Positions 4,021 to 7,261 of a stretch of 38,339 bases of DNA are shown in pieces. The position numbers were made by a program, and so were the translations under genes. Every line of letters starts with the position of its first letter. Positions within the stretch are counted from its first letter, which is position 1. The notes beneath the pieces are model-generated. The model was not told the origin of the DNA and did no database searches. It saw only the letters and a program-made list of their open reading frames with translations. This DNA comes from Methanobacteriota archaeon (lineage in GTDB: Archaea > Thermoplasmatota > Poseidoniia > Poseidoniales > Thalassarchaeaceae), in NCBI GenBank assembly GCA_002726275.1, contig PBSO01000039.1, positions 1-38,339 of the forward strand. The letters run 5' to 3'.

Positions 4021-4134
4021 ATGGGCAGAGTGAAAGGCGCCTTCAAGCTGGTTTCCTGGCTGTGGAGGAACAAGATATACCTCGCCACCATAGGCTCGAT
4101 GATTGCCAAGATTAGGGGTAGGAAGGACCCCTAG
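4021..4134 (+). CDS. 37-residue basic small protein downstream of aceE
   Basis: ATG at 4021 comes two bases after the aceE TGA and the frame runs 37 codons to TAG at 4132-4134. A modest SD (AAGGCGGA, about 4008-4015) lies upstream. The product is strongly basic (Lys/Arg at residues 3, 5, 9, 16, 18, 30, 32, 34, 35; only one Asp near the end). It has two hydrophobic or aromatic patches, LVSWLW and YLATIGSMIA, compatible with a short amphipathic or membrane-touching peptide. Its stop shares the palindrome CTAG (4131-4134) with the stop of the convergent TPM gene. No family is recognised. Tight packing on both sides and likely co-transcription with aceE favour a real gene, but a chance ORF cannot be excluded. 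Confidence 0.5.
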   Translation: MGRVKGAFKLVSWLWRNKIYLATIGSMIAKIRGRKDP

Positions 4135-5936
4135 AATCCACCGCCACCACCGCAGCCGCCACCACCGCAGCCGCCACCGCCGCAGCCGCCACCGCCGCAG
4201 CCGCCACCGCCATCACTGCTGCTGCTGACGGGTCTGCTGGATTCGTATATCTCGTTCCCGTGCTCGTCGAAACCCGCGCTGGTGACCACGTATCCGCCTG
4301 CGACGACATCGTCGATCAGATAGGACCCAACAGCCACAGGGATGATCACGTTGCTGTAATCGACCACCCGAGCAGTCGGTTGGGGCCTGTAGAGTGGGAA
4401 TAGGGGAGAGCGAACCCCTGCGTATTCCCTGACCAAATCTGAAACCGACCATACGGTGAACCCATAGAGGAGATACAGCACGATAGTGGAGATAATTACT
4501 ATGCCTAAGGCCAATCCATTACCTATGTAAATCACCAACCAAGGGTCATCCAGGACCCAGTCGCCCAAAGTGAATGGGTGGTAAGCAACCATGCTCAGAC
4601 CGAGGTAGATCAGTGTGAAATATATGGGAACCAGGCAGATCATGAGAACCGAGTTGATCCTGTCTCTAGAGTCACCGAATTCTTGGATTGTCCTGAACTC
4701 CTCCTCCAGATCCATATCAATCAATTGCACATCTTCCGGAATCCCAACGTCATCGGCCCTCTTGTTGAGCTCGGCACAACTCTTGAGCAAATCCCGATCA
4801 TACTCGATTTCTCGCAGCTCGCCGGTGACAACCTTGGTCAACTCCTCTATCTGGTCACTCACCTTCTCGAAAACCGTGCCGTCAGGTTCTCCCTTCAGGC
4901 TCTTTAGAGAAAGCATCCCCCTTCTTCTCGAGTATGCGAATCCCAACCTCTCCTCCGCCCACTCCTTTCTCTCCCAAAACTCCTGGTCGAAGGTCCTCTC
5001 TTTGCGCATCCTGGAGACTAAGAACACCATGCTCAAGAGCCCGATCGAGTAGACTCCCGAGTGTACACTCCAGTGCCACGGCTCTGGCTCCACTATGTCG
5101 TCAACCCTGTGTACATACTTCGACAGGGCTATTTCCCACAGATTCCCCCTTGTGTATTCGCCATTGATGTCCAAGAGGGTCCCGTTTGCGTTTTCAGGTC
5201 CTCCTCCAACATATCCGTAAGGATGGCTCCAGTCTTCTTCAACCACCCAAGGATGGTCATAGCAGTACCACTGCCACTCTCCTCCTCTGTCCTCGCAGTA
5301 GGCCCAGGTACTACCCCACTCCTCATACGAGTCATCTATCCAACAAGTCCACATTTCGAATCTATCGGAACCGTCCCACCACTGGTCCGTTGGCGGACCC
5401 CATTCGCAATTGTCGTAACCAGAGTATACCCCATCACTACCCCACCACCCCTCATAGTGATCAGCGGCATCGCCAAGCCTCCACGCACCATTGATGAAGA
5501 CGTCTCCGGATATCCTCTGGTTAAGTGCCGGCATGTCAGGCATGACGAACTTGAACTGACGGTCCCCAGTTGACAGGGCTATCATCATGCTGGGCTCCTC
5601 GCCCCCCTCCATCCCGTAGTGCTGGAACATCTGCCGGGCGTACCCCTCATCGTCGCTGAAGAAATCTTCATCAATTCCGTTTGAGGGGCCTAAACCATAG
5701 TCCCACATGTCTCCAATCGTGACTAGCCTCACCAATACCCCGTATTCCTCGTGGATACGAATCAGCTCCTCCTCGAACTCCGCCTCGGTCTCGTTGCTGA
5801 TGACTCCCGCAACGTCGTAGACATACCACTCCCCTTCTGGCTGAGGAGGGAAATGTCCACTCCAACCAACATGCTCACCAGCAACGGAACTTGATAGCAG
5901 TATAACTACGATCGATGAGATTATGACGTGCCTCAT
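4131..5936 (-). CDS. TPM-domain membrane protein with Gly/Cys-rich tail
   Basis: Seen in the 601 residues: a signal peptide (1-20, ending SSSVAG), then a TPM (YgcG/Psb32-like) domain from about 36 with the typical opening VYDVAGVISNETEAEFEEEL and a later MMIALSTGDRQFKFVM. Between 160 and 235 is an unusual insert rich in Trp, Tyr, Asp and Cys. Membrane segments lie at about 292-308, 428-453 and 466-494, with a charged cytoplasmic helical region at 310-425. The end (576-601) is almost pure glycine with Cys at 580, 585, 590 and 595, in CGGGG units. TPM proteins are membrane-tethered and often carry Gly-rich tails; their activity is poorly defined. It is the last gene of a unit with the GRDP-like and MBL genes, one base after the GRDP stop. 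The Cys spacing could bind metal or form disulfides (inference). Confidence 0.85.
   Translation of the reverse strand: MRHVIISSIVVILLSSSVAGEHVGWSGHFPPQPEGEWYVYDVAGVISNETEAEFEEELIRIHEEYGVLVRLVTIGDMWDYGLGPSNGIDEDFFSDDEGYARQMFQHYGMEGGEEPSMMIALSTGDRQFKFVMPDMPALNQRISGDVFINGAWRLGDAADHYEGWWGSDGVYSGYDNCEWGPPTDQWWDGSDRFEMWTCWIDDSYEEWGSTWAYCEDRGGEWQWYCYDHPWVVEEDWSHPYGYVGGGPENANGTLLDINGEYTRGNLWEIALSKYVHRVDDIVEPEPWHWSVHSGVYSIGLLSMVFLVSRMRKERTFDQEFWERKEWAEERLGFAYSRRRGMLSLKSLKGEPDGTVFEKVSDQIEELTKVVTGELREIEYDRDLLKSCAELNKRADDVGIPEDVQLIDMDLEEEFRTIQEFGDSRDRINSVLMICLVPIYFTLIYLGLSMVAYHPFTLGDWVLDDPWLVIYIGNGLALGIVIISTIVLYLLYGFTVWSVSDLVREYAGVRSPLFPLYRPQPTARVVDYSNVIIPVAVGSYLIDDVVAGGYVVTSAGFDEHGNEIYESSRPVSSSSDGGGGCGGGGCGGGGCGGGGCGGGGGF
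4137..4212 (-). repeat. 15-bp repeats encoding CGGGG
   Basis: On the plus strand, units of the form CCGCCACCNCCGCAG repeat about four times with changes only at third codon positions. They encode the Gly4-Cys tail of the TPM protein. The synonymous differences (CCA/CCG, i.e. GGT/GGC on the coding strand) show that the peptide pattern is older than the last duplication. Confidence 0.85.
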
Positions 5937-5937
5937 A

Positions 5938-6516
5938 TCAAACAGGCACTTGAGTTCCCAACATAAAGAAGACTGCGGCAGTCATCATCATTGCCAGGTA
6001 AATCTTCGATTTCGGGGTTATCGAGTACTCGGAGAGATTCACCCATCGCAGGTGTGGGAAAGAGGAGAATCTCTTCTCCGAAGAAGGCCACAGATCGCTT
6101 GGCGGGGGCCGACCGAATACCTGCTCGTAGTAGTGAAGCGTGTAATCGTACTGCTCGACGTGCTTCTCGTCTTCTTCCTCGCCCCCCTCTGTGGGACCGT
6201 GGTGCAGCTGGTATCCGAGTAATTCTGGGCAAAATGTTCCCCAGTAGTCGTGGGTGTAGGTCATGTGCATGTGCCAGACCTGATCCACTTCCATCGACGG
6301 TGTGCACGGGATCGGGCTGTGAGCGCATAGGTATGCGAACCTCTTGTACTCCTGGACCGCCCTCTCTGCCATCCCGATGCCCCACCCGTTCTCGTGGGCC
6401 ACTCTGTTCCTGAACGTCAGGTCGATGTTCTGCGGACCTATGCTGTATGCGATGAGCCTCTTGTGAGCCTCGATCGATATCCCCTCTTCGGAGGGAGCGG
6501 GCAGGGGCCCTTCCAC
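5938..6516 (-). CDS. GRDP-like (glycine-rich-domain family) protein with C-terminal membrane anchor
   Basis: The product (192 residues from GTG at 6516) matches the GRDP-like family (PF07173 type). The hallmark VDQVWHMHMTYTHDYW is at residues 77-92, followed by LLGYQLHHGPTEGG (99-112) and YDYTLHYYEQVFGRPPPSDLWP (split here as YDYTLHYYEQVFG and PPPSDLWP, about 123-144). The conserved Trp-His-x-His and His-His pairs look like a metal or ligand site. A hydrophobic stretch near 170-190 could anchor it. Earlier TTG starts (to 6582) would overlap the upstream gene by 62 bases; the GTG four bases after that gene's stop has GGATGGGG upstream and is preferred. In bacteria this family often neighbours TIGR04222-type membrane proteins with Gly/Cys tails (from memory), which matches the next gene here. 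The biochemical role is unknown. Confidence 0.75.
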   Translation of the reverse strand: MEGPLPAPSEEGISIEAHKRLIAYSIGPQNIDLTFRNRVAHENGWGIGMAERAVQEYKRFAYLCAHSPIPCTPSMEVDQVWHMHMTYTHDYWGTFCPELLGYQLHHGPTEGGEEEDEKHVEQYDYTLHYYEQVFGRPPPSDLWPSSEKRFSSFPHLRWVNLSEYSITPKSKIYLAMMMTAAVFFMLGTQVPV

Positions 6517-6520
6517 CGAG

Positions 6521-7261
6521 TCACCCCATCCTTTCCAAAGCAGGCGAGTTAAGGGCGTAGTTGTGCTGAAGGACCTCTCCAACGCTCACCCAGTCGGGAG
6601 TGCTTCCGTCAATCCAGTCATACCGGTGTCCGGGAATCAGTCGCCAGTCTCTCGGCAGACTCCCCAGTAGCCCCTTTGCATGACGTATGCTCATCCATTG
6701 TGCCCGTGGGTCGCTACCAGGCAGGTCGACCCTACCCATACCGTTGGTGAATAGCAGGTCTCCCGCGTGATAGACCCCATGTCCGTGCAGGGTGACGTGC
6801 CCTGGGGCGTGTCCGGGTGAATGCGTCACTCCGAGGGCGATTGAACCTGCAGACCACTCCACGGTGGTATCCGGTTCGTTGCTCCAAGTGTCCGTGAAGT
6901 CGACCTTCTTGAACACGACATGTCCGAGCAACCCCGGAACCCTTGCCTCGTCGTGGCCCCAAACCTCCACATCCGGAACCAGGGACATCATCGAGGAGTA
7001 TCCAGCGACATGGTCACGATGAGTGTGCGTGTACAGTAGGTGCGTAGGTGAGAGACCATCCTCGGAAAGAGCCTCGACCCACCTTTCCGAGTCGAAAGGA
7101 TCCACTATTGCCACTATTCCTGACTCCCTGTCGATGAAAGCGGTGTTCATGTTCATGTAACCGCCCATCTGGGTGACCCATACCTCGACCCCGTCATCTC
7201 CGACCCTCTTGTCGAACTCCCCGTCACCCAGCATCAAGACTCCGACGTAACCATCTCCCAT
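6521..7261 (-). CDS. MBL-fold metallo-hydrolase (glyoxalase II / persulfide dioxygenase-like)
   Basis: The 246-residue protein carries the metallo-beta-lactamase signature HTHRDH (H79, H81, D83, H84), H151 in SPGHAPGH, D168 in YHAGDLLF and H212 in IPGH, so the dinuclear metal site is complete. The segment GMGRVDLPGSDPRAQWMSI, followed by LIPGH, is typical of glyoxalase II-like thioester hydrolases and persulfide dioxygenases. Which substrate is used cannot be settled by reading. The N-terminal MGGYMNMNTAF fits the family's opening strand. ATG at 7261 is the first gene of a three-gene minus-strand unit with the GRDP-like and TPM genes, diverging from leuS. No signal peptide, so cytoplasmic. 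Confidence 0.85.
   Translation of the reverse strand: MGDGYVGVLMLGDGEFDKRVGDDGVEVWVTQMGGYMNMNTAFIDRESGIVAIVDPFDSERWVEALSEDGLSPTHLLYTHTHRDHVAGYSSMMSLVPDVEVWGHDEARVPGLLGHVVFKKVDFTDTWSNEPDTTVEWSAGSIALGVTHSPGHAPGHVTLHGHGVYHAGDLLFTNGMGRVDLPGSDPRAQWMSIRHAKGLLGSLPRDWRLIPGHRYDWIDGSTPDWVSVGEVLQHNYALNSPALERMG

Follow-up and report, generated by a model that had tools for sequence, protein, structure and literature searches.

The window, the whole 38,339-nucleotide stretch of archaeal contig PBSO01000039.1, carries two adjoining minus-strand genes that are the subject of this study: one for a GRDP-like protein, of a little-known kind that this marine archaeon has in common with plants, bacteria and viruses, and one for a TPM membrane protein that ends in a glycine tail with regularly spaced cysteines. 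Comparison of Poseidoniales genomes identifies the pair as a tight accessory two-gene membrane module. In the reading that we favour, the GRDP-like protein would be a membrane-tethered, cytosolic, metal-dependent protein that modifies or metallates the Cys tail of its TPM partner, and we give this reading about an even chance of being right. The association of GRDP with Cys tails is well supported by sequence; its chemistry we infer.

5938..6516, minus strand: GRDP-like protein, 192 aa, GTG start at 6516, with a helical domain and one C-terminal membrane anchor
4131..5936, minus strand: TPM membrane protein with a Gly-Cys tail, 601 aa (PF04536)

The GRDP and TPM genes stay together across Poseidoniales

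We searched 319 Poseidoniales genomes with a nine-sequence GRDP profile, counting matches at E 1e-62 or better as window-type. A GRDP is present in 24 of these genomes, 19 of them with the window type and five with a small or distant type. The window-type carriers are distributed over genera g1 (three genomes), g7 (one) and g9 (one) of family f1, and g12 (nine), g13 (one) and g16 (four) of family f2. A first reading of this DNA from its letters alone, here called the sequence-only reading, had suspected that a GRDP-like protein and a Gly/Cys membrane protein make up a conserved two-protein membrane module, and had suggested scoring the adjacency of their genes. The suspicion holds well beyond close relatives: a TPM gene adjoins the window-type GRDP in 19/19 genomes, covering six genera and two families, and a TPM profile at E<1e-60 retrieves exactly the same 19 genomes. 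The order of the two genes is swapped in some, with GRDP upstream in f1 and g16 and TPM upstream in g12 and g13. The genes around them change as well, from leuS, MBL and aceE (g1 and g9) to helix-turn-helix regulators or a MoxR ATPase and a helicase (g12), glutamate dehydrogenase (g16) and biotin carboxylase (g13). Since the flanks differ between genera while GRDP and TPM remain adjacent, the pair keeps together through changing contexts.

The distribution is patchy. Among the 390 Thermoplasmatota genomes sampled, the pair was seen only within Poseidoniales (19/319), and one scan of genome contigs matched only close archaeal relatives. None of the 35 best genomes carries it, where a frequency of about 6% would predict only two. 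In genome G012, leuS, MBL and aceE stand together without the pair, and the junction (L160:4190-4270) consists of roughly the first dozen GRDP codons and the last few TPM codons, which reads as loss of the pair by deletion unless the assembly collapsed at a repeat.

The tail cysteines track the GRDP and not the TPM protein

5544..5822, minus strand: TPM domain, residues 39-131 (Pfam PF04536)
4134..4211, minus strand: Gly-Cys tail, residues 576-601, GGGGCGGGGCGGGGCGGGGCGGGGGF, glycine with Cys at each fifth residue and a terminal Phe

The window TPM protein passes the PF04536 cut-off of 22.1 bits with 29.1 bits (E 1.1e-6), as do the TPM proteins of genome G051 (60.7 bits) and of the IMG/VR contig L088 (120.3 bits). 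The four cysteines of its tail are residues 580, 585, 590 and 595. We compared 15 tails: within the final 12 residues, C-GGGG-C-GGGG-[GD]-F, only the G/D position differs, while every codon of this motif varies among the 15 genomes. Fixed residues written in variable codons indicate selection at the protein level and not a young DNA repeat.

A search for the Cys-Gly4-Cys-Gly4 pattern at the DNA level hits 17 of the 319 Poseidoniales genomes, all with window-type GRDP, and all matches fall within the TPM gene adjoining it; in the other two of the 19 GRDP genomes, masking hides the tail (G011) or the contig ends before the tail is complete (G284). The TPM profile also detects a distant TPM protein in ten more genomes, which have no GRDP. 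Among the tails of these paralogs that we retrieved, the six complete ones are glycine-rich and end in [D/G/S/N]F, with zero Cys. The TPM tails of G283 and G293 are Cys-free although these genomes belong to the same genera as the GRDP-bearing G284 and G318, respectively, and the TPM protein of G318 has a Cys tail beside its GRDP. Thus, the tail cysteine tracks GRDP, not TPM. Psb32/YgcG-type TPM proteins (PF04536) share with the window protein a TPM domain placed after a signal or transmembrane (TM) segment and a glycine-rich C-terminus; it is the Cys in this tail that sets the window protein apart from its glycine-tailed archaeal relatives.

From hydropathy and charge, the TPM protein is predicted to contain a signal/TM segment, an external TPM domain, a cytosolic helical region, a TM hairpin and the C-terminal Gly-Cys tail, in this order. 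Four TM segments are predicted in each of the TPM proteins of G051, G318, G106, G171 and G119, and their strong positive-inside bias would put the TPM domain on the outer face and the tail on the cytosolic side. The window TPM protein has no match to TIGR04222 (NCBIfam), and its membership of that family was rejected. We also looked for the archaeal TPM protein in plasmids and found none.

The GRDP-like protein carries a conserved candidate metal site

6265..6288, minus strand: VDQVWHMH motif, residues 77-84, candidate metal/active site
6199..6204, minus strand: H105-H106, from alignment conservation
5947..6003, minus strand: C-terminal hydrophobic anchor, residues 172-190, from hydropathy

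Against PF07173, the window GRDP scores 17.3 bits (E 0.008) and does not reach the curated Pfam cut-off of 22.7 bits. Using hhalign, we aligned window-type GRDPs with an alignment of small GRDPs, the lead row of which reaches 43.6 bits against PF07173, and the two match over 119 columns (99.5%, E 5.7e-23). The AlphaFold model of the window GRDP is all-helical, with a mean pLDDT of 81 and a core above 90, and in structure it comes closest to a Harvfovirus protein annotated as 'glycine-rich domain-containing protein-like' (probability 1.00, E 5.4e-4). Despite the sub-cut-off Pfam score, profile comparison and structural match together identify the window protein as a member of the GRDP-like family. 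A search of annotated phages found no homologues of it.

The sequence-only reading had singled out VDQVWHMHMTYTHDYW in the GRDP-like protein and the Gly/Cys tail on the membrane protein, and both are present. Residues Y57, F60, P73, D78, W81, H82, H84, Y91 and H106 are conserved in both GRDP alignments, that of the window type and that of the small type. D78, W81, H82 and H84 of the VDQVWHMH motif are invariant in both, as is the H106 position, and H105 is invariant in the window type only. A D-x2-WH-x-H ... Y ... H core (the D78, W81, H82, H84, Y91 and H106 positions) is common to the two alignments, and its D/H/H/H residues are a probable metal site. The protein is predicted to be N-in and tail-anchored, with its domain facing the cytosol.

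GRDPs and cysteine tails are associated outside archaea

We extended the analysis beyond archaea using tblastn and profile searches, and covered plasmids and IMG/VR contigs. The view, in the sequence-only reading, that bacterial GRDP-like and Gly/Cys-tailed membrane proteins occur together holds more strongly than it was put: in two cyanobacteria, Gloeothece and Planktothrix, one chain contains a GRDP, TIGR04222 (1e-23 and 2e-22) and a Gly-Cys tail. A Rhizobium fusion (two of four records read) likewise joins GRDP, TM hairpin and tail in one chain. Further chains with GRDP and tail in cis come from the IMG/VR contigs L080-L085, L088-L090 and L165/L168, with L084 and L085 representing the same protein. 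On L086 and L087, the tail belongs to a single-TM protein whose gene comes after that of the GRDP and overlaps it, a split design like that of the window. On L088, the gene 21 bp upstream of the GRDP encodes a TPM protein (6.6e-35) that ends in a Ser/Cys tail, indicating that the pair recurs outside the archaeal set.

Quantification over 50 GRDP loci shows strict Gly/Ser-Cys tails in 27 of 471 non-overlapping open reading frames (ORFs), and each of these 27 either is a GRDP itself or lies directly beside one, which argues that the association is not chance. In the Rhizobium and L080/L082 fusions, hydropathy and charge suggest that the TM hairpin brings the tail back to the side on which the GRDP lies. 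For a GRDP on a Deinococcus plasmid (L027:5560-5800), the Gly-Cys tail lies in a frame other than that of the annotated gene; this may reflect sequencing error, decay or frameshifting, which are indistinguishable here. A TIGR04222 survey in plasmids matched essentially the query's own record alone. On the IMG/VR contig L080, a radical SAM protein (L080:3018-3869) is encoded about 2 kb upstream of the Cys-tailed GRDP.

Among the papers searched, none connects prokaryotic GRDP-like proteins with cysteine tails. Plant GRDP1/GRDP2 have a similar composition, a GRDP-like domain and, at the C-terminus, a [CG]GGGCGG[GC] region, described as a domain in GRDP2 orthologues, and plant members of the family (DUF1399/PF07173) affect growth and stress tolerance (PMC4299439). 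The plant proteins are one chain with a putative RNA-binding motif in between, whereas the window uses two genes.

A proposed model for the action of GRDP on the cysteine tail

The design of the module resembles that of MNIO (DUF692) and TIGR04222 membrane proteins, a system itself only predicted (PMC12452194), but the partner protein differs. In both cases, the gene of a presumed Cys-modifying protein adjoins that of a membrane protein whose C-terminus is a low-complexity Gly/Ser-Cys tail, and in the two cyanobacteria the relative of the window GRDP is joined to TIGR04222 itself. Unlike that system, the window has TPM and not TIGR04222, and its GRDP is all-helical, with no match in the PDB. 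An MNIO (PF05114) gene was found in none of ten genomes, all incomplete, including the pair-bearing G000, G007, G011 and G051, while two control genomes were positive, and we rejected MNIO as the modifier of the tail. The simplest account would be direct action of GRDP on the cysteines. MNIO genes are also absent in 490 of 1372 genomes with TIGR04222 genes (PMC12452194), and GRDP is a suggested partner for TIGR04222-type tails that have no MNIO enzyme.

We propose that GRDP and the TPM tail lie on the same side of the membrane. With the GRDP domain facing the cytosol and the tail placed there too, the two could meet and GRDP could reach the tail. The D-x2-WH-x-H ... Y ... H core would then be the predicted metal site acting on the tail cysteines. 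We favour a metal-dependent covalent Cys modification, of the kind proposed for MNIO/TIGR04222 and performed by an unrelated protein; alternatively within the model, GRDP may load metal onto the cysteines. Once matured, the tail would serve as a metal binder or as a sensor of redox or metal stress, held in place by an envelope protein whose TPM domain lies outside; candidate roles for it are metal chelation, redox sensing and assembly.

Several observations count against this model. For no GRDP-like protein do we know of an enzymatic activity, of metal binding or of a modification, and the papers searched report none. The PDB contains no relative of the window GRDP by sequence or by fold, and because no solved structure resembles the model, the active site is deduced from conservation alone. 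The topology of the window TPM protein is ambiguous, with one TM segment below threshold and the tail side assigned by hydropathy and charge only, and the tails of TIGR04222 proteins are placed in the periplasm (PMC12452194), unlike the predicted cytosolic tail of the window. All archaeal carriers are incomplete metagenome-assembled genomes in which a missing enzyme could be overlooked, and they are related, which means that their counts are not independent. Finally, the Cys tail is absent from the small, more distant GRDPs of Maritalea, Halomonas, Pseudomonas savastanoi, Macrococcoides, Azospirillum brasilense and L167, so acting on tails cannot be a function shared by the entire superfamily; the tail link is a property of window-type GRDP and merely frequent in the remaining GRDPs.

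The association of GRDP with tails would also be explained if GRDP were a binding or chaperone domain that holds the Cys tail or its metal, as a metal/redox buffer or sensor with no covalent change. The HxH and HH of GRDP could share metal ligands with the tail Cys, and the plant GRDPs hold domain and tail in one chain. However, the conserved W45, Y57, F60, P73 and Y91 exceed the needs of a simple ligand set, and CxxxxC in glycine is, to our knowledge, no typical metal motif; we consider such a role rather unlikely. It is still less probable that GRDP is a leader-like recognition domain whose cysteines are modified by an enzyme coded elsewhere, as in pathways with long leaders for ribosomally synthesized and post-translationally modified peptides (RiPPs). 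Small GRDPs with Cys repeats do resemble leader plus core (Cupriavidus AYCAR, Variovorax AWCSL and Poseidoniales KCWHDCQGRCWNACKS), and some are found near a TauD dioxygenase or a methyltransferase. In the window module, however, GRDP and tail are separate proteins in both gene orders, no enzyme gene accompanies the pair through its genomic contexts, and the four pair-bearing genomes tested have no MNIO. Patchy distribution, several genomic contexts and the apparent deletion in G012 would also suit a hitch-hiking cassette whose two genes, GRDP and TPM, do nothing together and whose Cys tail arose by drift within low-complexity sequence, but this is highly improbable, given that adjacency outlasts order reversal, that the tail Cys are invariant while their codons vary, that Cys is missing where GRDP is missing, and that GRDP and tail share one chain elsewhere.

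Should GRDP indeed act on the tail cysteines, GRDP-like proteins could represent a new cross-kingdom class of metal-dependent, MNIO-independent enzymes for the modification or metallation of cysteines in low-complexity Gly/Ser-Cys tails, working in trans in the archaeal module and some IMG/VR contigs, and in cis in bacteria and, by extension, in plant GRDP1/GRDP2. We advance this generalization tentatively and with more doubt than the model for the module; a novel enzyme class is its open upside. We know of no biochemical function for PF07173/DUF1399, and window-type GRDP accompanies cysteine-bearing glycine tails in archaea, in bacteria and on IMG/VR contigs, just as is seen in plants, which suggests a concrete, testable job.

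The MBL hydrolase is a bystander

7261-6521, minus strand: MBL-fold hydrolase, 246 aa (PF00753, E 2.7e-14)

The sequence-only reading had described three minus-strand genes separated by four bases and one base, and coordinates and gaps are borne out: the genes occupy 4131-7261, with 4 bp between MBL and GRDP and 1 bp between GRDP and TPM. An alternative TTG start at 6582 would make the GRDP-like gene longer and overlap MBL. At this locus, the MBL gene is probably co-transcribed with GRDP-TPM. Its proposed membership in a three-gene conserved unit did not stand, as MBL is present without the pair and the pair stands elsewhere without MBL beside it. We detected MBL in 24 of 25 family-f1 genomes tested, most of which have no pair, and it adjoins the pair in g1 and g9 only, not in G318, G051, g12 or g16. 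The order leuS-MBL-aceE occurs without the pair in G012, G013 and G014. MBL is therefore a core gene of family f1 and a bystander to the GRDP-TPM module, and we rejected it as a member of the unit. The short gaps and the same gene order in L011, L012 and L013/L054 would fit a single functional system of all three genes, but the distribution of MBL, its separation from the pair in other genomes and its retention in place in G012 make such a system scarcely credible and refute the conserved unit, local co-regulation being possible. The MBL protein resembles GloB-like hydrolases over 172 residues (GSH_gloB, 68.3 bits), far below the equivalog cut-off of 200.8 bits.

Judged from their translations, neighbouring ORFs encode leucyl-tRNA synthetase, pyruvate dehydrogenase E1, RNA polymerase subunit D and ribosomal proteins. 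These belong to an ordinary archaeal chromosome, indicating that the locus is no obvious contaminant.

Small GRDPs with cysteine repeats

Cys repeats or clusters in cis are found in the small GRDPs of Cupriavidus, Variovorax, four Poseidoniales, L091 and L092. The second, small GRDP type of other Poseidoniales (L019:1856-2296, L020:2551-2991 and L022:806-1246) ends in KCWHDCQGRCWNACKS or a near variant, and its gene and that of a TauD-type dioxygenase (PF02668, 7e-13 in L020) point away from each other; the two genes look like a RiPP-style precursor and its enzyme. The plasmid GRDPs of Cupriavidus and Variovorax (L072:3905-4514, L076:3929-4543 and L029:3980-4555) have C-terminal repeats such as AAYCARMA and AAWCSLEA, and a large EAL/GGDEF-type protein is encoded beside them.

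Two other plasmids place GRDP loci next to enzyme genes. In Stanieria (L070:4383-4514), a 43-aa ORF with AAFCFL/AGFCFL repeats lies between the GRDP and a methyltransferase gene. In Azospirillum ramasamyi (L074:3851-5870), a GRDP ending in CGDTEARGCKSQNCP, an S-adenosylmethionine methyltransferase and a TauD dioxygenase are arranged in a row. The distant GRDP of genome G200 (L069:3892-4386) has the C-terminal sequence CLPDCCCV.

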